IMG/VR virus record: IMGVR_UViG_3300010354_000060
Coordinates: 1-64,000 of that record
Length of the DNA stretch: 64,000 nucleotides
Origin: a virus
Reading direction: 5' to 3' (one strand)
In this document: positions 3,165 to 36,933 of the stretch, piece by piece
Layout: every line of letters begins with the position of its first letter
Position numbering within the stretch: the stretch's first letter is position 1
Made by a program: the position numbers and the translations under genes
The notes under the pieces: model-generated
Told to the model about the DNA's origin: nothing
Databases searched by the model: none
What the model saw: only the letters and a program-made list of their open reading frames with translations

Positions 3165-3258
3165 AGATCAGAACAGATTGAGTCAAACGAACGCCCCAGT
3201 TCATCAGAACCATGAAGGACGCAAAGAAGATCAGTCGGTCTAAATTGGAGAACCTCAT
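3151..3258 (-). CDS. Short membrane peptide (35 aa)
   Basis: Starting at the ATG at 3258 gives a 35-residue peptide that is mostly one hydrophobic helix (RLIFFASFMVLMNWGV). A longer frame reaches back to 3339 but would overlap the start and ribosome-binding site of the plus-strand oxygenase gene, so I prefer the short form. It overlaps the metallopeptidase start by 14 bases. Could be a small membrane protein or simply a non-coding leader. Confidence 0.4.
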   Translation of the reverse strand: MRFSNLDRLIFFASFMVLMNWGVRLTQSVLIYALS

Positions 3259-3314
3259 CGGTGCCTTGCGTATGAACTCATTATAGAACGCTTCAAGTCG
3301 GAAAAAGGAGGACA

Positions 3315-3878
3315 GTGGACAGTTATCTAAGTGGCACACCCATTCAAGTTATTGACAATTTTGTATCAATTTATGATGTTAAAAATTGTTATAATGATCT
3401 GGCATCAACTCATTGGGAAGTTGTATTTGATCATGCCTGGAGTAAAGTAAAACGTCGTGCATTTGGTCGTGGAATTGAGCACGAAGAATTGGAAATTGCT
3501 CTGAAAGAAAATGAAATGGTCAAATATTTTTATGGATTAGTTAAGAGTAGAAACCTTGAGGGATGTGGAACTCTTCGGCAATTTTATCTGAACTGTATTA
3601 AACCTGGTGATTCCTTTGAGTATCATCAAGACGTAACTCCTGGCAAGACTGAACTTGCTGGGAGTACAGTTTTAATCTACATGAACCCCGTGTGGAAATG
3701 GTGGTGGGGTTCAGGAACAGAATTTTTATTGGATAATAAAAAAACTCGTCTGGTTAGACCTAAACCTGGACGAGCAATTATATTTCCTGCAAAGATGCAA
3801 CACAGAGCAGTTGCACCAAACTTGCTATTAAATGATTTTGGAAGACTATCTATTGCTCTTCAGTTTTATAAGGACTGA
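3315..3878 (+). CDS. 2OG-Fe(II) oxygenase family protein (1 of 5)
   Basis: 187 residues, starting at a GTG preceded by AGGAGG. Seen: an HxD pair in EYHQDVTPG, then a beta-rich core (TVLIYMNPVW), and a distal His in MQHRAVAP followed by Arg in GRLSIALQF. This is the His-Asp...His...Arg order of the double-stranded beta-helix oxygenases that use 2-oxoglutarate and Fe(II) to hydroxylate their substrate. It is the only plus-strand gene in this part. Its 3' end overlaps the convergent oxygenase gene by 29 bases. Substrate unknown. Confidence 0.8.
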   Translation: MDSYLSGTPIQVIDNFVSIYDVKNCYNDLASTHWEVVFDHAWSKVKRRAFGRGIEHEELEIALKENEMVKYFYGLVKSRNLEGCGTLRQFYLNCIKPGDSFEYHQDVTPGKTELAGSTVLIYMNPVWKWWWGSGTEFLLDNKKTRLVRPKPGRAIIFPAKMQHRAVAPNLLLNDFGRLSIALQFYKD

Positions 3879-4404
3879 GATTAAATGATAGGGCAATTCT
3901 TCTCTTATCTGATGTATTTGGTAGTGTGAAATGATGAATTACTGAGGGGAAGATTAGAAGCGTCCCCTCCATAACACATGATGGAGAATACTGCAACGTA
4001 TTTCCTTGCATAAAATCATTGAATGGCGCAATGAACTGTGTTGGGGTATGAACTTCTTGATCATACTCTACGAAGCAAACTGCACTAAATCCCACTGGGC
4101 CATGATTATGAATGACATGGTGCATATTTTTCGTTGATTCTTCAAACCAACAATTCATAAGTTTTAAGTTATGTCCAGTCGTCATTAAAAATTCTGAAAT
4201 CTCGTCTCTTAAAATCTCAGAAACCTCATCAGTATAGTTGTTTCTACTATAATAATCCGTTATAACAGTATTGTTATCAGATAATTTTAAGTAATTATTA
4301 TTACTCTCAAATATGCTCATCAAAGATTCTTTCTTTTCTTCCCAACCTTCTACCATAATGTTAAAGATTGGAACACTGAACATATAATCCTTGTAACCTA
4401 TCAT
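3850..4404 (-). CDS. Putative 2OG-Fe(II) oxygenase, PF13759-like (2 of 5)
   Basis: Start placed at the ATG at 4404, which overlaps the upstream stop (ATGA), giving 184 residues. The pattern HHVIHNHGPVGFSAVCFVEYD, then GTLLIFPSVIHHFTLPN and RRIALSFNLSP, fits the family I know as 2OG-FeII_Oxy_5. There the motif is H-x-H near SGVYYV, followed by a distal FPS..H and RISISFN. The first metal motif is HNH rather than HxD. Forms a pair with the next oxygenase. Substrate unknown. Confidence 0.7.
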   Translation of the reverse strand: MIGYKDYMFSVPIFNIMVEGWEEKKESLMSIFESNNNYLKLSDNNTVITDYYSRNNYTDEVSEILRDEISEFLMTTGHNLKLMNCWFEESTKNMHHVIHNHGPVGFSAVCFVEYDQEVHTPTQFIAPFNDFMQGNTLQYSPSCVMEGTLLIFPSVIHHFTLPNTSDKRRIALSFNLSPYKTEEQ

Positions 4405-4991
4405 CCTAAATCCTCCAATACATACCAACCAGTCAAAATATACTTGGTTTTTGTTTTACTTATAACACCTTTATGTGTATGAGTCCAATCAGCGGGCCAA
4501 ATAAGCAACGATCCAGTTTCTGCTGATGCCTTAAATCTTTGGTGTAGAAAAATAGTTCCACCATCATAAACATCATTTAGATAGAACATCCAAACAACTT
4601 TTCTGTCTGCATGATTTGTTCCTCCAGATTCTGAGTGCCATCTTTTAAATCCTTCGCCTGGAAGATATCTCTGAATGTTAAATTCTTGCCCTATTCTAAA
4701 TGGATCAATAAAACTTAGTCCAATATATTTTTTAGAATAGTCTTTAATTCTTTCCGATAAAACTTCCATGAATGGTGAAAGCAATCTTCTCCATTCGGGG
4801 TCTCTTGAATCTTCTTTGGTGATGTAGATATCTGTAGAATCTTTTACATTTGGTTTGTATTCGTTCTTACCAGACATTCCCTTTTCATGTCTTTCGGGTG
4901 TCTGTTCAAACTTTTCTATTAAATTCTGGCAGTGTATTGGATCTATGGAATTTTTTATTTCACAAATAAACTCATGATAAGATGGAATCAT
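4401..4991 (-). CDS. Prolyl-4-hydroxylase-like 2OG-Fe(II) oxygenase (3 of 5)
   Basis: 196 residues. Seen: QRYLPGEGFKRWHSESGG, then VVWMFYLNDVYDGGTIFL, then GSLLIWPADWTHTHKGV and KTKYILTGWYV. This matches the P4Hc layout (YxxGexF..H.D, YLND...GGeT.F, P..G.ll.fp....H.g..v..G.RY....W). The proximal ligand pair is H-x-E (HSE) instead of the usual HxD, and Lys rather than Arg precedes the tyrosine that normally binds 2OG. Overlaps both neighbours in ATGA fashion, so it is co-translated with the methyltransferase. Could hydroxylate proline or lysine in a structural protein, or a sugar (inference). Confidence 0.75.
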   Translation of the reverse strand: MIPSYHEFICEIKNSIDPIHCQNLIEKFEQTPERHEKGMSGKNEYKPNVKDSTDIYITKEDSRDPEWRRLLSPFMEVLSERIKDYSKKYIGLSFIDPFRIGQEFNIQRYLPGEGFKRWHSESGGTNHADRKVVWMFYLNDVYDGGTIFLHQRFKASAETGSLLIWPADWTHTHKGVISKTKTKYILTGWYVLEDLG

Positions 4992-5617
4992 ATTTTCACA
5001 CTTGGTTCAAACTCCCACATTTTTTTGTGAATGATACACAGTTCCTTTTCAAAATGAATAGAACGAATCCACCAAGATAGTTCCGTAAGATAATTTGGAG
5101 TATCTTGACAGTCTATAATACCATTTGATGTCAACATTAGATTTGACATATAGTTTTGTAGGTTAGAGTTATTATACTCTCCACTACCAGTATAATACAA
5201 GTTTTCAATACTATAATATCCATCCTCTCTCAGGATTGGAAATAGATTTCCAAATGCAGTGATGATGTCATCTCCTTTATGTGATCCATCATCAATGATT
5301 AAATCAAAACCACCATACATTTTGATTGTGTTATAGGTCTCTACTTTGGTTAGATCACCTTCAACCAACCTAATTTTTTTATTTGATTGAACTCTACATT
5401 TACTCAAATCAATATCAACTCCCAAGATGAGAGAAGCATTTGGGAAGTACTGTTCCCAAAGTTGTAGTGATCCTCCACCATCAATACCAAGTTCAAGAAT
5501 TCTTAAATCTTTCTTAGTCTTTAATCTGGAGAATTTTTCTTCATAAGTTTCTATAAAGTTATTTCTTTTATTGAATGGCTCTCTATTCCAACCATCACAA
5601 AGTTCTTTCAAATTCAT
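4988..5617 (-). CDS. Class I SAM-dependent methyltransferase, macrocin/MycE-like
   Basis: 209 residues. The SAM-binding glycine loop reads LELGIDGGGSLQLW, followed by LILGVDID as the acidic residue that binds the ribose. Then come LVEGDLT and FDLIIDDGSHKGDDI. The GxDxGGS...W, GVDID and DDGSH signatures are those of the sugar O-methyltransferase group (MycE/TylF/CmcI-like), several members of which need a metal held by the DDGSH residues. Suggested substrate: a sugar hydroxyl or a hydroxylated side chain made by the adjacent oxygenases (inference). Overlaps the downstream oxygenase start by 4 bases. Confidence 0.75.
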   Translation of the reverse strand: MNLKELCDGWNREPFNKRNNFIETYEEKFSRLKTKKDLRILELGIDGGGSLQLWEQYFPNASLILGVDIDLSKCRVQSNKKIRLVEGDLTKVETYNTIKMYGGFDLIIDDGSHKGDDIITAFGNLFPILREDGYYSIENLYYTGSGEYNNSNLQNYMSNLMLTSNGIIDCQDTPNYLTELSWWIRSIHFEKELCIIHKKMWEFEPSVKI

Positions 5618-5621
5618 AAAG

Positions 5622-6626
5622 TTAGTATGTAATAATATTTGGACAAAGTGCGACTAAGTAACCATTGGCATTATAACCTATATTTTCTCCCCACCACCAA
5701 TCTGTAGGAGCTCCAGAAGATCCATAATTTGAATTGACTGTTGCTGTGAAATATGTTGGGCTCACATAACTGGAACCGCCTCCACCATATGCAGCACCTC
5801 TACAGTCACCGCCATCAGCACCACCGCCGCCACCACCATACCAACCATCATATCCTGGTCCGTATGAGTTTCCTGCTCCCTGACCGCCAGCAAATCCGTT
5901 TCCTGGTTGTGGATCGGTGCCTGAGCGGTGTGGACCTCCCCCTGCCCCTCCAGCGCCGTTCTGAGACCCTCCACCGCCTCCTGAGGCGTTTCTGCATCCA
6001 GACCCGTATGATTCGCCTGTTCCTCCTGTAGGACCACCAGCGTTTGATCCGCCACCATTTCCAGATCCTGCCAAGAGAATAACTCTATTTCTTGTTGGAG
6101 TGTCATTCAACATTGTGGTTGGTGAATTTCCCGTAAGAACAGCGCAAACACCACCGTTGAAGAATGTTACCTGAGAGAAAAATGTATAATCTGCATTATT
6201 TGGATTTAAAGTTCCCTTAACATATCCAGGACTTGGACCATGACCATTCATAGCCATCATCCAGTTATGCCCAGATTTTGTTGTAAATGGAATTCCAGCG
6301 TTTGTTGCTGCTGAGAGTTTATCAACTCTATATGAAACGAAATTTGTCACATATGGGGCAACAAAAGCTGGACTTGTTCCTCCATTATATTTGCTGACAA
6401 TTCCACCAACATCTGCAGGTGAGCAATAGCGAATGATTAGCACAGATTTAAAATCTGAATATAAGAATTGTATTCCGTATACAGCACTTGTGTCTGCTGC
6501 TGAAGTTGAATTTACACTGGATGCCAGCGAATTTGAAAAGGTTATTGGAAAATCAAATTCTCTTCCCCCTCTTCTCTTTTTAGTAATACCACTGATTGAA
6601 GATGCTATAGAATTAAGAAATGGCAT
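5622..6626 (-). CDS. Glycine-rich adhesin-like tail protein
   Basis: I set the start at 6626, just after the upstream stop, because the resulting N-terminus MPFLNSIASSISGITKKRRGG resembles the N-termini of the glycine-rich proteins at 11.4-13.0 kb. 334 residues. The first ~190 are beta-rich and unlike anything I recognise. The last ~130 are a glycine-rich stretch with GGGGG runs, SGRN/GRN turns, and an ending SYVSPTY...WWWGENIGY. T-even gp38 adhesins use glycine-rich loops to bind receptors, so a host-recognition tip is a reasonable inference. It sits between the methyltransferase and a fibre gene. Confidence 0.65.
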   Translation of the reverse strand: MPFLNSIASSISGITKKRRGGREFDFPITFSNSLASSVNSTSAADTSAVYGIQFLYSDFKSVLIIRYCSPADVGGIVSKYNGGTSPAFVAPYVTNFVSYRVDKLSAATNAGIPFTTKSGHNWMMAMNGHGPSPGYVKGTLNPNNADYTFFSQVTFFNGGVCAVLTGNSPTTMLNDTPTRNRVILLAGSGNGGGSNAGGPTGGTGESYGSGCRNASGGGGGSQNGAGGAGGGPHRSGTDPQPGNGFAGGQGAGNSYGPGYDGWYGGGGGGADGGDCRGAAYGGGGSSYVSPTYFTATVNSNYGSSGAPTDWWWGENIGYNANGYLVALCPNIITY

Positions 6627-6627
6627 A

Positions 6628-7536
6628 TCAATAATAACCTCCGACAACAGTTCCAAATACTTCGTAGTTAGCAGTTGTTGATGCTGAACCTACTGTGTTA
6701 ATGCCTGTAAAGTTATATATTGCATATCCATTTGAAGTTGTAACTCCAGAAATCGCATTCGCAAGAGAACCACCAGTCCACTTAATAGTTCTTGATACAC
6801 CATTCAGAGTTACTGTAGTGCAAGTTCTTGCAGTTCCTGTTGAATTAACAACAATTGACATTGACACTGCATGATTATTAAAATCATTGCTTGTTGGAAT
6901 ACCTGTAAGATTTACTGCAATATTTGCCGTTGGATTTGTACAGATAGCAATATTACCATTTGAACTGTTATAAGTTAGATTAACAGTATTTCCACTGACG
7001 ATCTGAGATTTTTCTGCTCCAGTAATAATTCTAAGTTCATTTGTTGCAATCGGAATATTTGCTTCAAATGCCTTTTTAGTGTCACTATAAGTGAAAGTTT
7101 TGCTTGTAGTTCCATAAATCTCAATTCCTGCACCATCAGCAGTAGTATCTGTTGCTGTTGCTGTGGATGCAATACCTACCGTTTTATCTGCAACATCAAG
7201 AACGGTGGTATTAACAATGGTTTGAGTTCCATTTACTCTCAGATTTCCATTGACCGTCAGATTTCCTGAAAGAGTAAGTGCAGAACCTACAATGTTATTG
7301 ACGGTAAGATCTGTAGCAGATAGTGTTGGAAAGAAACCTGTTCTACCAAAGAAAGACGTTGCACTAACAATTCCACTGTTCCCATACATCGTTACCCCAG
7401 AACCCACTTGTAGGGTTGCCTGGGGATTTGTGGTTCCAATACCAACACGTTGATTTGCAGTATCAATCTGAATTGTTGCGCCTTGAGTTCCAATACCAGA
7501 TGCAAAATCAGATAATCTGGATGCGTTTGTAGGCAT
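6628..7536 (-). CDS. Tail fibre-like protein (302 aa)
   Basis: N-terminus has ASRLSDFASGIG and the trimeric-fibre motif VGIGTTNPQATLQV, followed by beta-rich Val/Thr/Asn repeats. About 230 C-terminal residues are paralogous to the end of the protein at 13844-14899. They share GFEANIPIATNE-type, VNSTGTAR, TLNGVS+TI+W and TGINTVGSASTT motifs. Ends EVFGTVVGGYY. Late motif AATAAATA 23 bases upstream. Likely part of the distal fibres. Confidence 0.65.
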   Translation of the reverse strand: MPTNASRLSDFASGIGTQGATIQIDTANQRVGIGTTNPQATLQVGSGVTMYGNSGIVSATSFFGRTGFFPTLSATDLTVNNIVGSALTLSGNLTVNGNLRVNGTQTIVNTTVLDVADKTVGIASTATATDTTADGAGIEIYGTTSKTFTYSDTKKAFEANIPIATNELRIITGAEKSQIVSGNTVNLTYNSSNGNIAICTNPTANIAVNLTGIPTSNDFNNHAVSMSIVVNSTGTARTCTTVTLNGVSRTIKWTGGSLANAISGVTTSNGYAIYNFTGINTVGSASTTANYEVFGTVVGGYY

Positions 7537-7558
7537 TATATTTCTACGATTTTTTACT

Positions 7559-7566
7559 TATTTATT
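7559..7566 (-). promoter_or_regulatory. T4-like late promoter motif
   Basis: AATAAATA on the minus strand, 23 bases before the ATG of the fibre gene at 7536. T4 late promoters have TATAAATA at -10; cyanophage versions are commonly written NATAAATA. Confidence 0.55.
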
Positions 7567-7574
7567 AGATACGA

Positions 7575-8759
7575 TCAAGCAGTTCTCATAATAAACGCAA
7601 GAGCATAATATGGTGGACGGTTTTCATGATAAAGATTGCCACCAGTGCTTGATGTATTGGGGCTGCTTTCTCCTTGGTTAGCTGCTACTGCAGTGTTTCC
7701 AGATGTTCCAGTGTTCCAAGCACCATTGTTTCTCTGATATGTGTGAGTGTGAGATGGCATCTCACCAATGGTTAATCTATGTGCTGCTTCTCCACCAGAA
7801 TTTCCTGGAGCATAAGTTCCACTTACCGCACCAGTTGTGCCATCATAAGAATAATTTCCAGATCCATCTGCACCAGCACCAACAATAAATCTATTTCTAA
7901 GATCGGGAGTTCCATTAGAACCATCACAAAGAGCCCATCCAGTTGGAATAGAGGCAATAAATCCAGACCACATAATCACACCACCAACAGGAATGATTCC
8001 ATTGCCAACAAATGATGTGGCAGTAACAACGCCAGCAACTCTTAATCCACTGGAATCAACACTAACTTTATAAGCATCAATTCCAGTTGTTCTAAGGGTA
8101 ACAGCAGCACCTACTTGAATTGTGCTAAAAGTGCTAACTCCCGTTGCAGTAAGATTTGGAGTATTTAAGTTGGAAATTGTTGAAACTCCAACTAAATTGA
8201 CTGAACCTTGAACAGTCAATGTTGATGTTGGATTAGTTGTTCCAACTCCGACATTGCTTAAAGTTGATATTCCTGCTGAAGTCTGAGGCCAATAGTTAAC
8301 CGAACTGTCTGCAATAGCTCTTACAGTGCAAATACCAGCAGAAATCTGACTTACTGTGATATTATCCGCAAAATTAATAGTGGATGCAGTTCCTACTGTT
8401 ATTCCACCAGATTTTACAACAATACCAGAAGATCCTGAACCAACTACATTAGTCAGTCCAGAACCATCTCCTATAAAAACACTTCCAATAACAACACCAG
8501 TATTTGCTGCAATAGATGCGTTTGTCCCAAATCTTGCAATATTATCAGAAGATCTAATAGTAATTGCAGAACCTACATTAATTTGATTTGAGGTTACATT
8601 CCCAGTCAGTGGTCCAACAAAAGAACCTGCTTCAATAGTACCATCCTGAACGTCCAACTTAACATCTGGAGTGGTGCTGCCAACTCCAACGTTATTTGTG
8701 GGTCCAACTGTGAATACTCCACTATTTGATAATCTTGAAGCGTCTCTTGCTCTTGACAT
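7575..8759 (-). CDS. Tail fibre protein with C-terminal tail-collar domain
   Basis: 394 residues. The N-terminus, MSRARDASRLSNSGVFTVG with VGVGSTTPDVKLDV, is almost identical to that of the next gene upstream. The middle is a repetitive Val/Thr/Ser fibre shaft. The last ~140 residues form a phage tail-collar domain: GGVIMWSG, PTGWALCDG, PDLRNRFIVGAG, then the His-rich EMPSHTHTY, and a typical ending NRPPYYALAFIMR. Tail-collar domains bind metal and sit at fibre tips in many phages. Likely host-recognition fibre, paralogous to 8779-10071 with a different tip. Confidence 0.8.
   Translation of the reverse strand: MSRARDASRLSNSGVFTVGPTNNVGVGSTTPDVKLDVQDGTIEAGSFVGPLTGNVTSNQINVGSAITIRSSDNIARFGTNASIAANTGVVIGSVFIGDGSGLTNVVGSGSSGIVVKSGGITVGTASTINFADNITVSQISAGICTVRAIADSSVNYWPQTSAGISTLSNVGVGTTNPTSTLTVQGSVNLVGVSTISNLNTPNLTATGVSTFSTIQVGAAVTLRTTGIDAYKVSVDSSGLRVAGVVTATSFVGNGIIPVGGVIMWSGFIASIPTGWALCDGSNGTPDLRNRFIVGAGADGSGNYSYDGTTGAVSGTYAPGNSGGEAAHRLTIGEMPSHTHTYQRNNGAWNTGTSGNTAVAANQGESSPNTSSTGGNLYHENRPPYYALAFIMRTA
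8585..8759. repeat. Direct repeat, copy A (5' end of collar gene)
   Basis: The first ~58 codons of this gene closely match the first ~58 codons of the gene starting at 10071. The encoded proteins are nearly identical and differ at D/E, T/S and A/E positions. It could serve as a homologous-recombination target for swapping fibre tips. Confidence 0.6.
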
Positions 8760-8778
8760 ATTATTTTCTGGTTATATA

Positions 8779-10071
8779 TTAGTATTTAATACAAGGAAGA
8801 AGTGCTAAGTTGCGTGGACGGGTTTCAGTTTCAGTAGAAACTATTGAAAGTGAAGTTGCACCAGTGGTTCTTGAGTAATTATTTGTTCCAGTCCATGCAC
8901 CACCGCCACCAGCACCACCGCCAGTATTGGAGTTACTTTCATCAGTATAACTATGACTGTGACTTGATGGTGAAACACTCAAGTCATTTGCTGATGTTGC
9001 AAAATTCTGAGAAGAACCAAAGGATCTTCCACTATCAACACCAACTCTGTCATTAGACCAACCACGAATAAACTCACCTCTCAAATCTGGAAGTTTTCCT
9101 GCAGGACCATAGCTACTTCCAACAATTAAGTAAAGAGCAGAGAAGTCAGCAGTAATTCCCTGAACCGTTCCAACTCCAAATGGAACAGTATCGCCATTAC
9201 AAACCAAATACCCAGATGGTGCAAATTGTGATGCAAAGTGAAAAACAGCACCAGTAGGAACAACTCCAACTCCATTAAATGATGTTGCTGTTACAACTCC
9301 ACTTACACTCATTCCGCTTGAGTTTACAGTGGTGTTGAAAACATTAATGCCGCTGGTTGTAATCGTGACACCAGAACCTATGTTAATTCTATTGGTAGAA
9401 CTGTTGATATTGATACTTCCAAATGTACCAACTCCAGTAACAACAATATTTGAAGAATTTAAATTAGAAACTGTCGCAACACCTGTGATGATTGTAGAAC
9501 CAGAAACATCAACAGAACCTCTAACAGTCAATGTTGATGTTGGATTTGTGGTGCCAACTCCAACATTACCTAAAGTATGAATACCCGCTGAAGTCTTAGG
9601 CCAATAGTTAATTGAATTGTCTGATATGGCACTAATAGTGCAGATTCCAGCAGAAATTGGGGATACGTTAATATTATCTGTAAAATTAATTGTTGCTGCA
9701 GTTCCTACAGTAACGCCAGAATATTTAATAACGATACCAGAAGATCCTGAACCAACTACATTAGTCAGTCCAGAACCATCACCAACAAAAACATTTGCCC
9801 TCACAACACCAGTATTTGCTTCAACTGAAATATTAGAACCAAAATTTGCAGTATTTGTTGAAGATCTGATAGTAATCTCAGAACCTACATTAATTTGATT
9901 TGAGGTTACATTGCCAGTCAGTGGTCCAACAAAAGAACCTGCTTCAATGGTGCCGTCTTGGACATCTAATTTTACGTCTGGAGTGGTGCTTCCAACTCCA
10001 ACATTATTTGAGGGTCCTACTGTAAATACACCACTATTAGATAATCTAGAAGCCTCTCTTGCCCTTGACAT
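8779..10071 (-). CDS. Tail fibre protein with divergent tail-collar domain
   Basis: 430 residues. Shares its N-terminal ~150 residues with the neighbouring collar protein (MSRAREASRLSNSGVFTVG, VGDGSGLTNVVGSGSSGIV). It then has an extended shaft with a second VGVGTTNPTSTLTV motif. The C-terminal ~150 residues contain GAVFHFASQFAPSGYLVCNG, LPDLRGEFIRGWS and SPSSHSHSY, ending RPRNLALLPCIKY. This is another branch of the tail-collar family. It probably arose by duplication of the neighbour followed by exchange of the tip. Confidence 0.8.
   Translation of the reverse strand: MSRAREASRLSNSGVFTVGPSNNVGVGSTTPDVKLDVQDGTIEAGSFVGPLTGNVTSNQINVGSEITIRSSTNTANFGSNISVEANTGVVRANVFVGDGSGLTNVVGSGSSGIVIKYSGVTVGTAATINFTDNINVSPISAGICTISAISDNSINYWPKTSAGIHTLGNVGVGTTNPTSTLTVRGSVDVSGSTIITGVATVSNLNSSNIVVTGVGTFGSININSSTNRINIGSGVTITTSGINVFNTTVNSSGMSVSGVVTATSFNGVGVVPTGAVFHFASQFAPSGYLVCNGDTVPFGVGTVQGITADFSALYLIVGSSYGPAGKLPDLRGEFIRGWSNDRVGVDSGRSFGSSQNFATSANDLSVSPSSHSHSYTDESNSNTGGGAGGGGAWTGTNNYSRTTGATSLSIVSTETETRPRNLALLPCIKY
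9897..10071. repeat. Direct repeat, copy B (5' end of collar gene)
   Basis: Partner of the repeat at 8585-8759; see that entry. The two copies are in the same orientation about 1.3 kb apart, so recombination between them would delete one fibre gene. Confidence 0.6.
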
Positions 10072-10089
10072 ATCACACGACTTTTTGAT

Positions 10090-10097
10090 TATTTATA
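10090..10097 (-). promoter_or_regulatory. T4-like late promoter motif
   Basis: Exact TATAAATA on the minus strand, 19 bases upstream of the collar-protein start at 10071. It abuts the stop codon of the oxygenase gene. Confidence 0.6.
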
Positions 10098-10712
10098 TTA
10101 TCTTGCCATATCAAAAGCACAGTGAGCAAAATGTCCATCTCCCAAAACATAATGGAAGAAAATTTGGTGATAATAATCTTCTTTTTTATTCCAAAAAGTC
10201 TTTTTCTTTCCTGGCATTGGTTCTCTCCAATGAGGACGTTCTCTTCCTTTATAGATCATAGCATCTCCAGGATTTAGATTAGCACAGAATGAAGTCCCTT
10301 GAGAACTTTCTATACAAATTGGCCATGGTTCTTTTAAAGAAGTTCCAATATGAACAGTTACAGATATTTCACAAGCATCTCTGTCAACATGTTTTGTTAA
10401 TTCCTGTCCAGGAAAATAAAACCTATCGTAATAATAGGTATTATAAAGTTTTCTGCCAAGAATTTGTTCTAATTTTAATCTAATTTCTGCATGTGCTTTC
10501 TTATATTGTGGGTGCGAATATCTTGCAAGAGATCCATTAACCTGAGTTTCTTCCTCTTGATGATCAAACTTATCTAAAGAACCATAGTAAGTGATTTGAC
10601 CTCTTTCTTCTGGAACTGGGTGATATAAATTTTCAACATTGCATAAATTTGGAACGACAAGATATCCGTTTGCATCAAAAAATTCATTATGAGTCCAAGA
10701 TTTCATTTTCAT
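10098..10712 (-). CDS. 2OG-Fe(II) oxygenase family protein (4 of 5)
   Basis: I start it at the ATG at 10712 (GGAAGTG ribosome-binding site, five bases after the upstream stop), giving 204 residues. Seen: YYYDRFYFPGQELTKHVDRDACEISVTVHIG, with HVD as the proximal metal pair; LNPGDAMIYKGRERPHWREPM as the beta-turn region; and YHQIFFHYVLGDG with a candidate distal His. The fold order agrees with a 2OG-Fe(II) hydroxylase. It is co-oriented with the fifth oxygenase. Substrate unknown. Confidence 0.7.
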   Translation of the reverse strand: MKMKSWTHNEFFDANGYLVVPNLCNVENLYHPVPEERGQITYYGSLDKFDHQEEETQVNGSLARYSHPQYKKAHAEIRLKLEQILGRKLYNTYYYDRFYFPGQELTKHVDRDACEISVTVHIGTSLKEPWPICIESSQGTSFCANLNPGDAMIYKGRERPHWREPMPGKKKTFWNKKEDYYHQIFFHYVLGDGHFAHCAFDMAR

Positions 10713-10716
10713 AATA

Positions 10717-11337
10717 TCACTTCCAGCGAGGTCCAACTACCCAACCAACAATAGATTTGCGAACACCTTTTGTCACTTTCAATACTCTATGTTGTGCTCG
10801 TGAATCAAAGAGAATAATCGTCCCGCGTTGACGAGGAGCAAAATAAGATTTTCCTTGATCATCAATGAATTGAACGTTACCACCCTCATAATCATCTGGA
10901 TCTGAAAGTTGTAGGGTAAAAGAAAGTTTTCTTATAAGTTCTACATTCTCATTCAGAAAGTCCTGTGTCAGTCCATTTGCATGGTTTCCAACTGATTGTG
11001 GTTTATAGTGACAAGAAATTGCAGAATCGTGGTGCCAACCATAGAATTCTCCCTCACCATATTGTGTATATTGGAGGGATTCTCCATCAATGTTTCTCAG
11101 ATCATATAGAAAGTTTTCCCGATTTGCTCTTTGCACATAATGCCACAAAAATCCAGCAACCCAATGTGTAGTTGGAATCCAAGCATTTTTAGAGTTTCTT
11201 TTTTCCTTATTCAAAGCATCTCCCTGCAGCCTTGAATCTTTCATCTTGTTATCAAAATTATCTGAAACATCCTTCTCAATAATATCAACAATTTCTTCGG
11301 GAAGATCTGTGAAGAACCATATAGACTGATATGCCAT
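10717..11337 (-). CDS. PKHD/P4H-type 2OG-Fe(II) oxygenase (5 of 5)
   Basis: 206 residues. Clear prolyl-4-hydroxylase-like core: QYTQYGEGEFYGWHHDSA (HHD carries the H-x-D-type ligands), LSFTLQLSDPDDYEGGNVQF, then GTIILFDSRAQHRVLKVTKGVRKSIVGWV with the distal His and the Arg or Lys expected to bind 2OG. It resembles bacterial PiuC/PKHD-type hydroxylases. Lies directly upstream of another oxygenase and downstream of the glycine-rich adhesin genes. It could hydroxylate fibre proteins (inference). Confidence 0.85.
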   Translation of the reverse strand: MAYQSIWFFTDLPEEIVDIIEKDVSDNFDNKMKDSRLQGDALNKEKRNSKNAWIPTTHWVAGFLWHYVQRANRENFLYDLRNIDGESLQYTQYGEGEFYGWHHDSAISCHYKPQSVGNHANGLTQDFLNENVELIRKLSFTLQLSDPDDYEGGNVQFIDDQGKSYFAPRQRGTIILFDSRAQHRVLKVTKGVRKSIVGWVVGPRWK

Positions 11338-11417: not shown

Positions 11418-12263
11418 TTAAGGTGTGTATAATGTAAATACTACTCTTGAATTTGAACTTGCGCTTCCCGCACTCCCACGATTTGGATCAGATTCATTTG
11501 CAAATGAAGAAGTTGTTCCGCTGACTATATATCCGCCATTGACATATCCAGATCCACCTCCTCCACCTGATGCGTTTCTGGTGCCACTTCCAAAGTCATT
11601 ACCACCACCGCCGCCATAACCACCATAATATCCGCCACCGCCACCACCGCCCCCACCAGCGTTATCATATCCGCCTCTTGAACCTTCTCCTCCAGTTCCA
11701 CCTTGTAGGTATCCAGCGCCGTTACTTTGAGATCCTCCTCCACCTCCACTAGATCCAATCTGAGAATCTGAAGAAGTTGTGCCTGGTGATCCAGAAAGTC
11801 CACCTCCACCTCCACCAGGAGAGTATCCGTGCCCTCTACCTCCCCCTCCACCACCACCTGCAATCAATAGTGGAGTTGATCCAACAAAAACGCCAGCATA
11901 TCCTCCACCTGGTTCACCTGGTCCAACCCAACCATATCCAGTTCCACCAGATCCTTTTCCAGCATTAAGTTGAATTGTGTATGTAGTTGATGAATCTGCA
12001 TATAAAGCACCAGTGGAATAACCTCCAGTACATCCTCCACCACCTTGCCCCCACATTTTGATGGTTACAAGTTTACTTGTTGTTGGGATTATTGTATAGC
12101 TTGTTGAATTTCCACCATCTAGAATGAGAGGTCCATCATCTTCCAAATTCCAAACAGATTTTCCAGAAATTGGTGGGGTAACTGAAAATTGTGTGTCACC
12201 TACTCTCTTCTTTTTAGATGAAGATCTTACTATTGCCTTTGAAAATCCAGATGATAGTGGCAT
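11418..12263 (-). CDS. Glycine-rich adhesin-like tail protein
   Basis: 281 residues. N-terminus MPLSSGFSKAIVRSSSKKKR is shared with the next gene and resembles that at 5.6 kb. About 85 beta-rich residues follow, then ~180 residues dominated by glycine runs with Tyr, Ser and Asn (GGGGG, GYGWVGPGEPGGGYAG, GTRNASGGGGGSGY). The ending VVFTLYTP is short and beta-like. Glycine-rich repeats of this type occur in phage receptor-binding adhesins. GC content rises locally because of GGN codons. Probably a fibre-tip protein. Confidence 0.65.
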   Translation of the reverse strand: MPLSSGFSKAIVRSSSKKKRVGDTQFSVTPPISGKSVWNLEDDGPLILDGGNSTSYTIIPTTSKLVTIKMWGQGGGGCTGGYSTGALYADSSTTYTIQLNAGKGSGGTGYGWVGPGEPGGGYAGVFVGSTPLLIAGGGGGGGRGHGYSPGGGGGGLSGSPGTTSSDSQIGSSGGGGGSQSNGAGYLQGGTGGEGSRGGYDNAGGGGGGGGGYYGGYGGGGGNDFGSGTRNASGGGGGSGYVNGGYIVSGTTSSFANESDPNRGSAGSASSNSRVVFTLYTP

Positions 12264-12264
12264 C

Positions 12265-13017
12265 TTAATATCCTTCCAGATAAGTAACCTTCACTACAAT
12301 CAATCCACCAGATCCTCCTCCACCACCAGCACCACCTGAGGTATTTCCATCATACTCTGCACCGCCACCGCCGCCTCCACCGCCAGCACCATATCCAGAT
12401 CCACCAGCACCACCAGTTCCACCGTAACGATATGCGTTTCCTCCAGCACTTGTTACCGTATATCCTGTTCCACCACTAGATCCAGAAGTATTTGGAACAG
12501 ATGGTAATCTATCTGCAGAAAGAGTTCCATTTGGTGAAAAATAAACTCCACCAGCTCCACCATAACCACCTTTTCCACTCCAACTATCTCCACCTGGTGA
12601 TCCATTACTACCTTGTGGATATGCCGTAATAGTGTAATCACTAAAAACATCTCTAACTGCTTGTGGAATTGTTAAATTTGTTCCACTTGGTCCAGAAACT
12701 GGTGTTGGATAATTTATCCCAATTGATATTGGTGCTGGAGCACCACCAAATTGACTTAATAAGACACTTGCATATCCACTTGTTCCACCAGAGCCACCAG
12801 TTCCACCATCAGTTGACCTTGGAATTCCAGGAGATCCTGAACCTCCACCATTACCAGGTGTGATGCTGAAATAATCAACCTGTTGAATTTGTTGAATTGA
12901 ACCTAAATCAAGAGTGCCTGGGGAAGTGAATTGGAAGTATTTTTTAGCTAGTCTTTTACCTCTTTTTTTAGATGAAGATCCTAGTATTGTCTTTGAAATT
13001 CCAGATGATAGTGGCAT
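12265..13017 (-). CDS. Glycine-rich adhesin-like tail protein
   Basis: 250 residues. N-terminus MPLSSGISKTILGSSSKKRGKR is nearly the same as that of the downstream neighbour, but the rest differs. A beta-rich middle (FTSPGTLDLGSIQQIQQVDYFSI) contains GGSGSPGIPRSTDGGTGGSGG. A long glycine-rich C-terminus ends GGGGGSGGLIVVKVTYLE. One base separates its stop from the next start, so the two are translated together. It looks like a second version of the same adhesin design. Confidence 0.65.
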   Translation of the reverse strand: MPLSSGISKTILGSSSKKRGKRLAKKYFQFTSPGTLDLGSIQQIQQVDYFSITPGNGGGSGSPGIPRSTDGGTGGSGGTSGYASVLLSQFGGAPAPISIGINYPTPVSGPSGTNLTIPQAVRDVFSDYTITAYPQGSNGSPGGDSWSGKGGYGGAGGVYFSPNGTLSADRLPSVPNTSGSSGGTGYTVTSAGGNAYRYGGTGGAGGSGYGAGGGGGGGGAEYDGNTSGGAGGGGGSGGLIVVKVTYLEGY

Positions 13018-13026
13018 AATATTATT

Positions 13027-13842
13027 TTAAGTAGAAGAAATATACATGCTATACGTATATGGTGTATATCCAGAAGCACTAATCTGAACGCTTATAGTAC
13101 CTGCAGAATGTGGATTAGCTAAAGCAAGTAATGCAGATCCATTACCACCACTAAAAGTTCCTGAAGGCGGATTTCCATAATATGAATCAAATGATCCTCC
13201 ACTGAAAGAAGCAGAATATGGGAAAGCAACACCATTTGAAACTTCTTGGAATGTCCTGTTCACTGCAAGAGTAAAATAATCAAAACCATTGCTACTTCCA
13301 TTGTAACTGAAAGAACCATTTACTGTTGGAGCAGGTGCTGGTGCTGGTGCTGGTGCAGGTGCTGGAGCAGGTGCTGGTGCAGGTGCTGGTGCAGGTGCTG
13401 GAGCAGGTGCTGGAGCAGGTGCTGGAGCAGGTGTTGTGCTTGTATCATTAATTGTAACAACAGAACTTGTTGCAACAATCGGTCCAGAAATGCTTCCTGT
13501 TCTAAGTTCTAACTGAAAACTTTCAGATCCTTCAGTTGTTGAATCTGAAGATATAATTCTCGTAATACTTGCTACTCTATTAGTAATGGTTATAGATCCG
13601 CTTGTAGCTCCATCAACAAAATCTGAGGAATTGACTGATCCAGTAGTGGTCCAATAAAGGATATTTCCATCAACAATTGAATTAGTAATATTTGGTATGG
13701 TAACATTGAAAGTTACAAAACTTCCTTCATTGACTGAGGATGCAGAAGGAGTTATTGAATATAATGGCGATATATATCTTCCTTTAGAAAATCCAGAAAT
13801 AATAGAACCTTTAGAAATAAATCTTCCAAAAAACGGTGACAT
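13027..13842 (-). CDS. Calx-beta/Ala-Pro-repeat tail protein
   Basis: Start set at 13842, just after the upstream stop, giving 271 residues. N-terminus MSPFFGRFISKGSIISGFSKG belongs to the same short leader type as the glycine-rich proteins. Residues ~30-125 resemble a Calx-beta domain (NEGSFVTFNVTIP, TTEGSESFQLELRTG, VVTINDT). A stretch of about 18 Ala-Pro dipeptides follows as a rigid spacer, then a ~90-residue C-terminal beta domain. Likely a virion fibre or decoration. The Ala-Pro spacer is a possible target for the prolyl-hydroxylase-like enzymes nearby (speculative). Confidence 0.65.
   Translation of the reverse strand: MSPFFGRFISKGSIISGFSKGRYISPLYSITPSASSVNEGSFVTFNVTIPNITNSIVDGNILYWTTTGSVNSSDFVDGATSGSITITNRVASITRIISSDSTTEGSESFQLELRTGSISGPIVATSSVVTINDTSTTPAPAPAPAPAPAPAPAPAPAPAPAPAPAPAPAPAPTVNGSFSYNGSSNGFDYFTLAVNRTFQEVSNGVAFPYSASFSGGSFDSYYGNPPSGTFSGGNGSALLALANPHSAGTISVQISASGYTPYTYSMYISST
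13327..13434. repeat. Tandem hexanucleotide repeat coding (Ala-Pro)n
   Basis: About 18 copies of a six-base unit, mostly GGTGCT, GGTGCA or GGAGCA on the plus strand. On the minus strand they encode alternating Ala and Pro. In-frame units like these can change number by slippage without breaking the reading frame, so the spacer length may vary between isolates. Confidence 0.9.
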
Positions 13843-13843
13843 C

Positions 13844-14899
13844 TTACCAAAAACCTCCACTTGCAACACCAAATATTTCATAGTTATCAGTTGTTGATGC
13901 TGAACCTACTGTATTGATACCAGTAAAACTAAAAATAGCATGTCCGTTTGTGGTTGTAAACCCAGCAAGTGCTATAGCATTAGTGTAAGAACCACCAATC
14001 CAACGAATAGTTTTAGATACTCCATTCAAAGTGATTGCATTACAACTTCTTGCAGTTCCTGTAGAATTTGTAACAACGGAAAAGGTAATGGAATGATCGT
14101 CAAAATCACTTGTTGTTGGAATTCCTGTAACATTTAAAGTTACATCTCCACTTGGATTTGTAGTATAACCAATATTTGATCCAGAGGAAGAATTATAAAC
14201 AAGGTTTACAGTATTTCCATTTGTTCTAAAGACTTTTTCTGCACCAGTAATTACTCTGGTCTCATTGGTTGCAATTGGAATATTAGCTTCAAACCCTTTT
14301 TTGGTATTATTATATGTTAATGTTTTATTTGTTGTTCCATAAATTGTAATACCTGCACCATCAGCCAAGGAATCTGTTGGAGTAGATGTAGAACCAATAC
14401 CAATATTTTTATCCGCTACTTCTAATGATGTTGTATTGATAATGGTTTGAGTGCCATTTACTGTAATGTTAGTAAATGTTGCAGAACTTCCTACAACATT
14501 CCCTACGTTAATATTAGGACTTCCCGTTAATCCATATGAAGATGTTGCAATAATTGTAGTAATGCCAAGAACATTTAAGTTGCCTTGAATATTGACTGAC
14601 CCACCAAAATTTACATTATCATCACTTGTATTTACAGCATCAGCAATTCTAAATGTATCAAAAATTTGAAATTCTAAGACATCACCAACTGTTGATGGCG
14701 ATAAAAGTGTTACAGTATTTGCATCTCTTGCAGTATAGTCTAATGATTCAACCAATTTGGTTCCATTTCTATAAACTGCAAGATAGTTTAATCTATATCC
14801 ACCCGTTACAGTGAATAAAGTTTGCCCTGCAGTGGCAACAGCACTGATTGTCTTGCTTGCAACATTTGATGTAAGTGTTACTGGATTACCTATTGCCAT
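13844..14899 (-). CDS. Tail fibre-like protein (351 aa)
   Basis: N-terminal ~95 residues carry a module also seen in the next gene: AGQTLFTVTGGYRLNYLAVYRNGTKLVESLDYTA, then GDVLEFQIFDTF. The middle is a fibre shaft with a ...IINTTSLEVADKNIGIGSTSTPT segment. The C-terminal ~200 residues are paralogous to the end of the protein at 6628-7536 and finish YEIFGVASGGFW. This duplicated C-terminal domain with different N-terminal modules indicates domain shuffling among the fibre genes. Confidence 0.65.
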   Translation of the reverse strand: MAIGNPVTLTSNVASKTISAVATAGQTLFTVTGGYRLNYLAVYRNGTKLVESLDYTARDANTVTLLSPSTVGDVLEFQIFDTFRIADAVNTSDDNVNFGGSVNIQGNLNVLGITTIIATSSYGLTGSPNINVGNVVGSSATFTNITVNGTQTIINTTSLEVADKNIGIGSTSTPTDSLADGAGITIYGTTNKTLTYNNTKKGFEANIPIATNETRVITGAEKVFRTNGNTVNLVYNSSSGSNIGYTTNPSGDVTLNVTGIPTTSDFDDHSITFSVVTNSTGTARSCNAITLNGVSKTIRWIGGSYTNAIALAGFTTTNGHAIFSFTGINTVGSASTTDNYEIFGVASGGFW

Positions 14900-16711: not shown

Positions 16712-16719
16712 TATTTATT
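16712..16719 (-). promoter_or_regulatory. T4-like late promoter motif
   Basis: AATAAATA on the minus strand, 21 bases before the ATG at 16691. It overlaps the stop of the upstream gene. Confidence 0.5.
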
Positions 16720-28868: not shown

Positions 28869-31800
28869 TTATTGTTCAGGGTTGGTGATATTTCTAAGAG
28901 TTCCTGGAATATTGAGATTTGGATTGTTATTGTTAGTATCAGTACCAGATCTTTCAATTGCACTTGGAGCAGTAGTAATTCTTGCGGTGATGCTTTCTTG
29001 TAGAGTGTCGTATACTCTTACAGGATCTCCAATCGTCTTAAAGTATCCAGCATACTTGAGTCCACTTTCATAATAAACTGCACCATAATAAGATCTTCCA
29101 TCAATGTATCCTGTTTGTTTTAATCCAACAAGATCTGTTACTTGAATTAGTTTTTCTTGTGGTAATCCTGCAATTTCTCTAACTGGTGTTAATATTGGTC
29201 TTGCCGAAAAATTAATTCCTGTGTCAGTTTCAACTTGAATAATTGGAAGTGAAGTATATCCAGATCCTGGTGTTACTACATTGACTTCAGAAATTCTTCC
29301 GAAGGAATCGCATTTATACGAAAGAGTAGCACCGTTATCTGGAACTATCGTAATCTTATCTATACCACAATTATAATTGATTCCTGGATCATCCACAACT
29401 ACCTTATCTAATACAAGAATAACTGGATAACCATCAGGAGATTCTGGAAGATCAATATAATTATTCCCTGGGTCATCTACAAGAACTTCATCAACAACAC
29501 CTTTACCACCAGTGATCTTTGGACAAGGAGGGGCAATCAGGACTGCAGAAGCACCCATTGGATTTCCTTCAGCCCAAGATGCTGCTGATGTTGATTGTAT
29601 AACTATATCCTTGGTAACTTCTAAGGCAACACCTGTTGGATTTATATCAAAATCATCATTTCTATTTGGAGGTGGAAGAGGAACGTTGACTAATTGAATT
29701 TTGACATCATAATTTCCGTTACTAATATTTGCAAGAACAGGAATGGGTTCTCCACCAGAAAAGTCGGTGGTTTCATAGATTTTATCGTTACCAATATAAA
29801 CAGTAGCAATATTATCTCCCTGCATTTTTAATAGATATTGACCACTTTCTGGGAAAGAAACATTTTTCCAGAGTAAAGTTCTCTCTCCATTAACATCACC
29901 TTTTTTAAGAATCTTTGATTTCTTTGGTGCTTCTGTCAGTCTCTTAAAGGTTCCAATATTTGTTGAGATGACAAAATCATCCCAGTCGTCACCTTTTTCC
30001 TCACAAACAAGTTGAGTATTTGGTCTGGATCCAGATCCCCTAACATCTTTTACTTTTTCATCACCAACATATAATTTTGCGCTATTGGCAGTTGGTTTAC
30101 ATGGTCCGTATATTTTCCCCCCAGCAACAGTATATTTTTTTGATCTTATGTTCTCATTAATGGTGTCTATTCCTGGGATAGTAATTCCATGAAAAATACT
30201 TGAATCGTTAGCAACATTTTTTAGTTCTATTTCAACAGAACCTTCATAATTACTCAAATCAAGATAGACTCCACCACCATTAAATCCAGAAACATTCTCA
30301 TCTGTTTCCGTATCTTCAATAATTGGGGATACATTATACTCATTCATAAATGTTGACCAAGCTTTATGGCGATAGTTATATAACTTTGGTCCAACATAAG
30401 TAATCCCGTCTTTTACATTGTCAGATAACAATCTTGAATCTGAGAGATTTTTAGTAGCAACAATCTTTAGTGATGCATTAATATCAGATCCTCCTGCATC
30501 TAAGAAATTAAGAGTTTGCCATCCCCCAGTTTTTCCAATAACAATCCAAGCATCATCGGCAAAAATTGGTGCTTTTTGATTTCCAATTAACTGAATGGGT
30601 CCATATTCTCTATTAACTTTAAAAACAGATTTTGAACTAACGTTACCCTTTTCTCTAAAACTTCTCCCACTCTTCTCTCTTTCTAAAATAATTGGAGATC
30701 CATCTGGATTAGGGATGACAATTTTTGAAATGGCGATGCCATTATCATTTGGATTATCATCATATTTTAAAGATATTGAAACTTCTGTGTCAGTATTTCC
30801 ACCAACAGTCATATAATATCCATCACCTTTGAGATGGAAATGCGCTCCAGCAACTTGAGTTTCTTTTGTTAGTTGATTTTGCCAGTCTTTTGTACTGAAT
30901 ATCTTTTTATTGATTACCGAACTTGTTGTAATTGGTTGATTGAAAACCTCAACTGTAATTTTGTGAGATCCTTTTCTCAAAAACTTTTTGGTTGTTGTTG
31001 GATTTTCTACCTTAAATCCTTGTAGTTTATAAACCTCTTCGTTATCAATTAATATTCTTCCCTTATTATCTACGCAACCCTTCACGCCATAGTATCCATC
31101 ATAAGGAATCTCTACGTCCCAGGTATTTGTAAAATTAATTCCAGCTCTGTCACTACCTGGGGTATCAAGTGGTGGAACAGGTGAAATTGCATACCTGTTC
31201 ATGAACCTGCTCCAAGTGTTTGGAACTCTATACTTTACAGGATACCATTTCTGAGCAGACTTTGGAAATCTTGTAGACCAAATTGGATTAGTAGGACACC
31301 TTCCAAGTTGTTGGGTTGGTGGTTCTTGTGGTATTGGTGGTTCTGGAGCATCAATGGTTAGAGAAACTCCCAATGGATTTTCATACCAAGATTTAGCAGA
31401 AACAACTTTTGTTTCAGTATAAGATGATTCAATATTGATAGCAAGAGTCATTGGGTTACCCTTTGATAGGGGTGCTCCAGGAATTTGTTCTAACTCAGCA
31501 CGAATTCTATAACTTCCCGCTTTAAAATAACGAGTTTCATTTAGATCTGGAGTTCCAATTGAAGTTCCAGGAAGAAATCCTCTCTTTCTAATAATAACTT
31601 CATCTCCACCTTCATTTACATCACGAAGACCAGTTTCATTTCCTACGTTTCCACCAGTTTCACGATTTCCAATGTAGATTGTAACGTTGTCGTCAACAGC
31701 AACTTGAACTTTATAATATCCATCAATAGGAAAGTTTACATTTTGCCATCTAATGACATGAACCCCCGCAAAAGAATTTGTTTGTGCTTCTTTAGTATTT

Positions 31801-35340: not shown

Positions 35341-35346
35341 TAGTTA

Positions 35347-35565
35347 TCAATCTTCATAAATTCTACATTCAACTGCTTCTGGATTTGCGTCACAGTAAAG
35401 TTCTAATCCAGTTGGATCATGATCATCTTCTGGATGATTGCTGCGATAGCTTTCTAAACTTTGTAGTTCGTCTTCTAAATGGCGACGACGTTGAGCACTG
35501 AGATTTGAGTCATCTAACTCTGTTTTGTCAGCATCTATGTGCTGGTGAATTGTGCGGTCGGTCAT
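35347..35565 (-). CDS. Small acidic hypothetical protein (72 aa)
   Basis: 72 residues, acidic and helical (LDDSNLSAQRRRHLEDELQSLESYRSNHPEDD) with a Cys-containing tail (LELYCDANPEAVECRIYED). Lies between two hub genes and overlaps the gp27-like stop in ATGA fashion. A possible hub-assembly or chaperone role is inference from position only. Confidence 0.6.
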   Translation of the reverse strand: MTDRTIHQHIDADKTELDDSNLSAQRRRHLEDELQSLESYRSNHPEDDHDPTGLELYCDANPEAVECRIYED

Positions 35566-36905: not shown

Positions 36906-36933
36906 CTTTTAATTTTCCTATATCTTATTTACA

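Follow-up and report, generated by a model that had tools for sequence, protein, structure and literature searches.

Cyanophages carry up to 24 2OG-Fe(II) oxygenases per genome, without a proven substrate (PMC9602691). The locus described here, in which oxygenases and a methyltransferase lie among fibre genes, raises the question of whether such enzymes decorate the phage's own fibres. We analyzed a window of 64 kb (the whole stretch of DNA under study) out of an 82.5-kb record of a marine T4-like cyanophage, for which no near-identical phage was found in INPHARED. The best explanation of the fibre block, to which we assign a probability of roughly 0.55, is that it constitutes a small fibre-tailoring module. 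Fibre self-modification by the window genes is plausible, and it is well supported for a collagen-type branch found in S-CAM9 and its relatives.

Gene order in the late fibre operons

The six open reading frames singled out by the earlier note, i.e., five oxygenases and one methyltransferase, are all present. They are interleaved with fibre genes, with the exception of 3315, which is on the plus strand and outside the module (genes are named by their lower coordinate). The genes and promoter-like sites are as follows:

3315 to 3878, plus strand: 2OG-Fe(II) oxygenase (PF13640 5e-7, over the curated cut-off)
3850 to 4428, minus strand: 2OG-FeII_Oxy_5 (TIGR02466-like) oxygenase with an HxH motif (PF13759 9e-11, over the curated cut-off; PHROG_81 6e-32)
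4401 to 4991, minus strand: 2OG-Fe(II) oxygenase with an HxE motif (PF13640 2e-9, over the curated cut-off; PHROG_61 1e-35)
4988 to 5617, minus strand: MycE/TylE-like SAM-dependent sugar O-methyltransferase (PHROG_21658 2e-19)
5622 to 6656, minus strand: glycine-rich fibre-like protein, candidate substrate (composition score 0.51), 4 bp upstream of 4988
6628 to 7536, minus strand: fibre-like structural protein (PHROG_36132 of unknown function 1e-25; PHROG_6002 virion structural protein 3e-10)
7559 to 7565, minus strand: late-promoter-like ATAAATA upstream of the run 6628-5622-4988-4401-3850
7575 to 8759, minus strand: tail fibre/collar protein (PHROG_5795 9e-23)
8779 to 10071, minus strand: tail-collar fibre protein (PF07484 2e-8; PHROG_523 5e-27)
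10090 to 10096, minus strand: late-promoter-like ATAAATA upstream of fibre gene 8779
10098 to 10736, minus strand: divergent 2OG oxygenase (T4-GC 615 type)
10717 to 11337, minus strand: PKHD/P4H-type 2OG-Fe(II) oxygenase (T4-GC 412 type; PF13640 9e-15, over the curated cut-off)
11418 to 12263, minus strand: glycine-rich fibre/adhesin-like protein, candidate substrate (composition score 0.58), directly upstream of 10717
12265 to 13017, minus strand: glycine-rich fibre-like protein, candidate substrate (composition score 0.57)
13027 to 13881, minus strand: fibre-like protein with an (Ala-Pro)n repeat, seen in the translation
16712 to 16718, minus strand: late-promoter-like ATAAATA upstream of the run from 16164 down to 10098

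The minus-strand run of fibre genes, in which no gap exceeds 80 bp, also includes the methyltransferase and four of the oxygenases. The gene overlaps reported previously are real and measure 4 bp (4988/4401), 28 bp (4401/3850) and 20 bp (10717/10098). The latter two use TTG starts; an ATG eight codons inward, a possible start for both 3850 (position 4404) and 10098 (position 10712), would instead leave an overlap of 4 bp in the first case and a gap of 4 bp in the second. Since 3315 is on the plus strand, tail-to-tail with 3850, it is probably outside the fibre operon. Twelve of the 16 ATAAATA sites sit 10–50 bp upstream of a same-strand start, compared to 0.5 expected. These late-promoter cores precede fibre genes and none stands directly before an oxygenase; 3850, 4401, 10098, 10717 and the methyltransferase 4988 are distal genes in late fibre operons. 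This placement supports the pairing of these enzymes with fibres.

According to the mechanism that we propose, the fibre genes and enzymes would be transcribed together in the late phase. The oxygenase pair 10717/10098, followed by 4401 and 3850, would add hydroxyl groups to side chains in adjacent fibre proteins that are rich in glycine or in repeats, and 4988 may methylate such a hydroxyl or a sugar carried on one. The observations behind this proposal are the gene order, the late-promoter placement, the fold and metal-site motifs, the association of the 10098 family with fibres, and the pairing of lysyl hydroxylase/glycosyltransferase enzymes with collagen-like fibres in related phages. From these we infer that the adjacent fibres are substrates of the window enzymes, which residues are targeted, and that the methyltransferase shares that target.

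As for substrates, 11418 and 12265 had no PHROG match. The (Ala-Pro)n repeat of 13027, at 13.3 kb, had been put forward as a hydroxylation target; this is not specifically supported, and the repeat was rejected as a conserved substrate. Because it is missing in every other phage examined, nothing ties it to the enzymes, and tblastn searches with the low-complexity filter on found no phage relative of the protein. Collagen was likewise rejected for the window fibres, in which no collagen repeat was found.

Predicted activities of the enzymes

Four of the five genes previously described as oxygenase-type (3315, 3850, 4401 and 10717) exceeded a Pfam curated cut-off, and the fifth, 10098, was recognized by its predicted fold. 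The 10717 profile matched the PDB entries for a PKHD hydroxylase (3dkq, 5e-12), PiuC (8e-9) and PBCV-1 vCPH (5c5t, 4e-5). Its AF2 model (pLDDT 84) had P. putida P4H as the top Foldseek match (6e-11), with PHD2, PBCV-1 vCPH and PiuC also among the fold matches, and the putative ligands H102/D104/H183/R193 are invariant. The AF2 modelling covered window and IMG/VR loci, and the fold predicted for 10717 most resembles those of protein prolyl hydroxylases. By sequence, its best relatives are PKHD-type hydroxylases (PiuC, YbiX, Sbal_3634), although these are cellular genes and 10717 scores under the curated equivalog cut-offs. PBCV-1 vCPH offers a virus-encoded 2OG prolyl hydroxylase fold, but comes from a eukaryotic algal virus, and by sequence the 10717 family is nearer to PKHD/PiuC. 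In work attributed to Eriksson 1999, which PMC9301287 cites, vCPH is said to act on Pro-Ala-containing repeats in viral proteins.

The product of 10098 falls in PHROG_2954 (T4-GC 615; 2e-62), which is named 'ferrochelatase', as it is in GenBank; it had no Pfam match. The best PDB match of its AF2 model (pLDDT 93) was again P. putida P4H (9e-9), with AlkB and AsqJ also matched. In a 45-sequence alignment of the family, H116, D118 and H169 are invariant, with no invariant Arg/Lys about ten residues past the distal His, and an HxD..E motif occurs in 80 of 80 IMG/VR relatives. Eighteen of these 80 homologues are long, and all five long ones scanned carry a C-terminal PF13640 domain. On the basis of its predicted DSBH fold and HxD...H motif, 10098 is a 2OG oxygenase. 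Since both its fold and its motifs point to a 2OG oxygenase, the name 'ferrochelatase' misfits, and that assignment was rejected given the DSBH fold and the lack of a Pfam ferrochelatase match. A role in nucleic-acid modification or repair through AlkB-like activity, in keeping with a DNA-repair function proposed earlier (PMC9146016) and with the appearance of AlkB in the structural matches to 10098, is highly improbable: P4H ranks above AlkB, and the genes are in late fibre operons, away from repair genes.

Both models best match the P4H that was solved with EF-Tu, which would suit a role in host takeover or metabolism. The oxygenases would then have host proteins or small molecules as targets; they might tune 2-oxoglutarate (NtcA), or hydroxylate EF-Tu or ribosomal proteins, and their proximity to fibres would be accidental. 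This is the published view on cyanophages (Sullivan 2010, PMC3037559), and many cyanophage oxygenases are located elsewhere in the genome. We nevertheless consider it unlikely for this module, which sits within late fibre operons; the 10098 family tracks fibre genes, and the 2-oxoglutarate idea also leaves the gene position and the pairing of PLOD with collagen unexplained.

The remaining oxygenases also retain conserved putative ligands: H119/E121/H173/K183 in 4401, H104/D106/H163/R177 in 3315, and H107/H109/H166/R177 in 3850, where HxH...H, without a carboxylate, takes the place of HxD/E...H, a point against the fibre-tailoring proposal. Sequence searches of the PDB returned no relatives of 4401 or 3315, and the weak matches of 3850 were to unrelated folds and were discarded. 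3315 matched an FlmC-family NCBIfam model at 4e-15, under that family's cut-off; we found no paper in the literature on this 'FlmC' lead and set it aside.

The methyltransferase 4988 matched MycE (3ssm, 2.7e-17) and TylE, a demethylmacrocin O-methyltransferase (8ia9, 1.7e-15), in the PDB. Judged by sequence, its catalytic domain is homologous to these macrolide sugar O-methyltransferases, so that the previous 'MycE/TylF-like' label was essentially right. Unlike MycE and TylE, 4988 is short and is encoded by a phage, within a fibre operon, and no macrolide pathway was seen. Because its closest relative among cyanophages is found within a cluster of glycosyltransferases, a sugar is at least as likely a substrate as a hydroxylated residue. 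The oxygenases and methyltransferase might accordingly tailor glycans, either on the fibres or on host LPS in a superinfection block. The record encodes an epimerase, a PfkB kinase, a cytidylyltransferase and a carbamoyltransferase at 61.5–65.5 kb that would fit such a role. However, none of the module genes was seen to encode a glycosyltransferase and the predicted fold of 10717 is nearest to protein hydroxylases, making glycan tailoring distinctly unlikely.

Association with fibres across cyanophages

Cyanophage oxygenases overall showed no significant fibre enrichment (p = 0.19 within 3 genes; 158 oxygenases, 13 records), and global enrichment beside fibre-like genes was therefore rejected. 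The 10098 family, in contrast, is strongly fibre-associated. Among 80 viral contigs, a fibre-like gene was at most 3 genes away in 39 of 55 loci (71%), compared to 19% of non-fibre genes (nominal p 8e-17; 12 complete cyanophages) and 40% in a same-contig control. The fibre nearest to the family is glycine-rich (median G 0.21 vs 0.12 in all fibre-like proteins). A Gly_rich_2 adhesin was less than 3 kb from an oxygenase in 14 of 17 cyanophages (5.05 expected), and the largest oxygenase cluster was closer to fibres than under random placement (p = 0.007). These counts are phylogenetically non-independent, and the narrower tests were picked after the overall test came out negative. Relatives of 3315, 3850 and 4401 are near fibres only sometimes; those of 3850 and 4401 frequently lie at a distance from them, and the nearest relatives of 3315 are 4–11 genes away.

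The region flanking tail fibres is a known hypervariable region of gene acquisition (PMC7029224), and this alone could be enough to explain co-location. The oxygenases would then be generic cargo piling up in a host-recognition region, functionally unrelated to fibres, as the non-significant overall enrichment might suggest. We regard this as improbable given the conserved catalytic motifs, the fusions in the 10098 family, and the specific association with Gly-rich fibres. Moreover, 10717 and 10098 are adjacent in 10 of the 12 cyanophages viewed with both, and share one island in the other two; S-SM2, Bellamy and S-MbCM6 are phages with this pair.

Returning to the fibre-tailoring module, the commonest Pfam-recognized companions of the 10098 family are O-carbamoyltransferases and Trp halogenases. 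We tentatively suggest, at somewhat below even odds, that tailed phages of marine bacteria have late 2OG hydroxylases that decorate their own fibres together with O-methyl-, O-carbamoyl-, halogen- or collagen-type Gal/Glc partners, the window being a non-collagen, glycine-rich version.

A collagen-type enzyme in related phages

The strongest support for fibre self-modification comes from outside the window. S-CAM9 and its relatives encode a single protein with GT25, GT_PLOD and lysyl-hydroxylase (LH)-like domains, which matched LH3 (5e-33), COLGALT1 (1e-19) and mimivirus LH (1e-8) in the PDB. Wherever a contig offers 2.5 kb or more of upstream sequence (13 of 13 such contigs, Roseobacter phage CRP-6 among them), a collagen-like G-X-K-G fibre rich in Lys-Gly is encoded immediately upstream. 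Cultured phages of this branch include S-CAM9, S-PRM1, S-8S55 and CRP-6. By its domains, the protein fits a PLOD glycosyltransferase and LH with a collagen-like partner. Given oxygenases in the fibre block and an LH/sugar-adding enzyme beside a collagen-like fibre in related phages, decoration of the phage's own fibres may therefore occur.

The earlier idea of own-fibre hydroxylation thus gains from the late fibre operons, the 10098-family association, the prolyl-hydroxylase-like fold of 10717 and the LH/collagen pair, but not from general oxygenase enrichment, the Ala-Pro target or the fibre proximity of 3315, 3850 and 4401 relatives. We found no mass-spectrometric evidence for fibre hydroxylation in the publications consulted. 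Published virion spectra of S-CREM1 and S-SCSM1 were matched to ORFs with Mascot, and the descriptions consulted mention no search for hydroxylation. With a subset of oxygenases tied to fibres and a collagen-type enzyme in cultured phages, the long-open substrate question becomes answerable by virion mass spectrometry. If experiment shows it, own-fibre decoration would be new for phages, which would alter their adhesins post-translationally in a manner invisible to sequence comparison alone.

The S-CAM9-type proteins share their glycosyltransferase and lysyl-hydroxylase domains with mimivirus L230 and animal PLOD/LH3, and adjoin a collagen-like protein, but have an additional domain resembling GT25 collagen galactosyltransferases. 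The oxygenases of the window, in contrast, consist of a single domain and lack a GT part; the window's record yielded no GT25/PLOD domain, which sets them apart from the PLOD type and argues against glycan tailoring, and which, like the lack of collagen repeats in the window fibres, also counts against the fibre-tailoring proposal. The oxygenase domain of the S-CAM9-type enzyme aligns with the 10717 family by profile.

Identity and arrangement of the window enzymes

The window forms the first 64 kb of a viral record of 82,539 bases. T4-like genes of this record include a tail fibre (PHROG_529), a gp32-like ssDNA-binding protein and baseplate genes, and PhoH, Thy1 and a bilin reductase were also found. 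Megablast against INPHARED returned no relative of the window; its protein-level matches are cyanomyoviruses. The earlier note had described five predicted 2OG-Fe(II) oxygenases and a methyltransferase, and all six genes are present at the coordinates it gave (each is named here by its lower coordinate):

10717, minus strand: PKHD/P4H-type oxygenase
10098, minus strand: oxygenase of the 'ferrochelatase'-labelled family
4988, minus strand: methyltransferase
4401, minus strand: oxygenase
3850, minus strand: oxygenase
3315, plus strand: oxygenase

Pfam recognised four of the oxygenases; it gave no match for 10098, which was assigned by its predicted fold and HxD...H motif. The MycE/TylF-like assignment of 4988 essentially held, its matches being MycE and TylE.

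Both PHROG and GenBank label 10098 as a ferrochelatase. Its AlphaFold model (pLDDT 93) is a double-stranded beta-helix with a Pseudomonas prolyl hydroxylase as top PDB match (9e-9), HxD...H is invariant across 45 aligned sequences, and HxD is seen in 80/80 IMG/VR relatives; the ferrochelatase label is therefore ill-suited to this protein. Relatives longer than 360 aa (18/80) carry a C-terminal PF13640 domain in all five scanned. PHROG_2954, PHROG_3531, PHROG_274 and PHROG_2297 are labelled 'ferrochelatase' or 'DNA endonuclease (V)' yet match 2OG oxygenases, and these labels have spread across GenBank cyanophage records. For 10717, profile searches retrieve PKHD hydroxylases and PBCV-1 vCPH, and the best fold matches of its predicted model are protein prolyl hydroxylases (P. 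putida P4H, PHD2, vCPH and Chlamydomonas P4H). In 3850 (3850-4428), HxH replaces HxD/E and is kept in ten relatives, raising the question of iron binding mode.

The reported interleaving with fibre genes was borne out for four oxygenases and the methyltransferase, which lie inside a minus-strand fibre-gene run (25137 to 3850) whose genes overlap slightly or are separated by no more than 80 bp. We left 3315 out of this module: it is on the opposite strand, and in its nearest relatives the distance to fibres is 4-11 genes. By number alone, the window shows no excess of ATAAATA, the T4-late-promoter core (16 seen, 22 expected); 12 of the 16 sites, against 0.5 expected, fall 10-50 bp ahead of the start of a gene on the same strand. 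Sites of the fibre block precede fibre genes and none lies directly ahead of the block's oxygenase genes, which are distal; the module oxygenases are thus probably expressed late, together with the fibres.

Oxygenases and fibre genes across cyanophages

We surveyed 158 oxygenases in 12 complete cyanophage genomes and the record. Across all of them, 40 lie within three genes of a fibre-like gene compared to 33 expected by rotation (p = 0.19), a real negative against any broad claim of oxygenase-fibre proximity. Subset tests gave p values that are nominal, since related genomes are not independent and the subsets were picked once the overall test had come out non-significant: each genome's largest oxygenase cluster is closer to fibres than under random placement (p = 0.007) and within two genes of one in 7/12 (3.9 expected; p = 0.05), and a Gly_rich_2 adhesin lies at most 3 kb from an oxygenase in 14/17 cyanophages (5.05 expected; nominal p = 6e-6; p = 0.004 at 1 kb; p = 0.012 for per-genome values combined by Fisher's method). 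Under the same caveats, of 80 IMG/VR loci of the 10098 family, 55 were testable and 39 of these have a fibre-like gene within three genes, compared to baselines of 19% (non-fibre genes, complete genomes) and 40% (same contigs); the nearest fibre is glycine-rich.

Counterparts of 10717 and 10098 are adjacent in S-SM2, Bellamy, S-MbCM6, ACG-2014b, ACG-2014g, S-CAM8, P-RSM4, S-SSM5, S-RIM50 and Sf-CH11, and share one island, but apart, in S-SM1 and S-RSM4. Most neighbours of the 10098 family match no tailoring-type family; the O-carbamoyltransferases (5/144) and tryptophan halogenases (4/144) among them agree with a tailoring role. In the oxygenase islands of P-RSM4, S-SSM5 and S-CAM8, the 10717/10098 pair is separated from the Gly-rich fibre by a Nol-like O-carbamoyltransferase on the opposite strand. 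Tryptophan halogenases occur near Gly_rich_2 fibre genes and oxygenases at:

Sf-CH11 105111-106667
S-WAM1 31495-32742
P-TIM40 36774-39507

Their position suggests a fibre-related rather than antibiotic role. A further gene set, adjoining a second fibre cluster, resembles a cassette for O-carbamoylation and heptose-type nucleotide sugars:

window 61552-63777 and record 63774-65459: epimerase, PfkB kinase, cytidylyltransferase and carbamoyltransferase genes

A lysyl-hydroxylase-like glycosyltransferase beside collagen-like fibres

In Synechococcus phage S-CAM9, a tail fibre and two oxygenases are directly followed by a protein combining GT25, PLOD-type glycosyltransferase and lysyl-hydroxylase-like parts, annotated as hypothetical there and as hypothetical or 2OG oxygenase elsewhere:

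S-CAM9 (NC_031922) 34407-36254
S-8S55 7501-9366
CRP-6 7426-9195
IMG/VR contigs L144-L158

Its C-terminal domain matches mimivirus lysyl hydroxylase (PDB 6ax6, 1e-8); matches to its remaining parts are human LH3 (5e-33) and, at 1e-19, collagen galactosyltransferase. The protein is present in 15 IMG/VR contigs, with an FkbM methyltransferase adjoining in three, and in the cultured phages S-PRM1, S-8S53/55/56 and Roseobacter phage CRP-6. A collagen-like G-X-K-G fibre lies upstream in 13/13 contigs that extend 2.5 kb or more in that direction, a count that includes S-CAM9 itself and several close relatives; L150, L152 and L155 were too short to count, and no such fibre was seen within the 1.2-1.8 kb upstream in L158 and AG-345-L05. 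S-8S55 and CRP-6, inspected after the pattern appeared in IMG/VR, carry upstream fibres with 55 and 99 G-X-Y repeats, respectively, rich in K-G. Among the 12 complete genomes, enzyme or collagen-like fibre occurs only in S-CAM9. The pairing is not exclusive from the fibre side, as some 10098-family loci have G-X-Y repeats with no such enzyme in view. On the simplest reading of these sequences, this branch would modify its own collagen-like fibre, forming hydroxylysine and then adding galactose and glucose. Our literature search, with subscription journals mostly outside it, found no description of a phage enzyme of this type.

Possible hydroxylation of the window's fibres

The 10717 family aligns with the oxygenase domain of the S-CAM9 protein; both 10717 and 4401 hit the oxygenase portion of PHROG_61, a profile that the S-CAM9 protein spans almost completely. 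The window enzymes share with it a superfamily and a similar kind of position beside fibres, but the window fibres, unlike those of the S-CAM9 branch, lack collagen repeats. By this analogy, we consider it somewhat favoured (probability roughly 0.55) that the window enzymes hydroxylate fibres, as the earlier note had proposed.

Cyanophage 2OG oxygenases have been proposed to modulate 2-oxoglutarate (PMC3037559), to aid DNA repair (PMC9146016) and to serve many functions (PMC9602691). The idea of phage fibre hydroxylation is not wholly new, because a Baltic Sea study had already drawn attention to viral prolyl 4-hydroxylase and to tail-fibre collagen, terming their use cryptic (PMC9301287); the gene-level evidence is new. 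Pro-Ser repeats resembling the window's Ala-Pro repeat occur in putative minority-strand ORFs of S-SM1 (3188-4084) and Syn30 (54119-55072).
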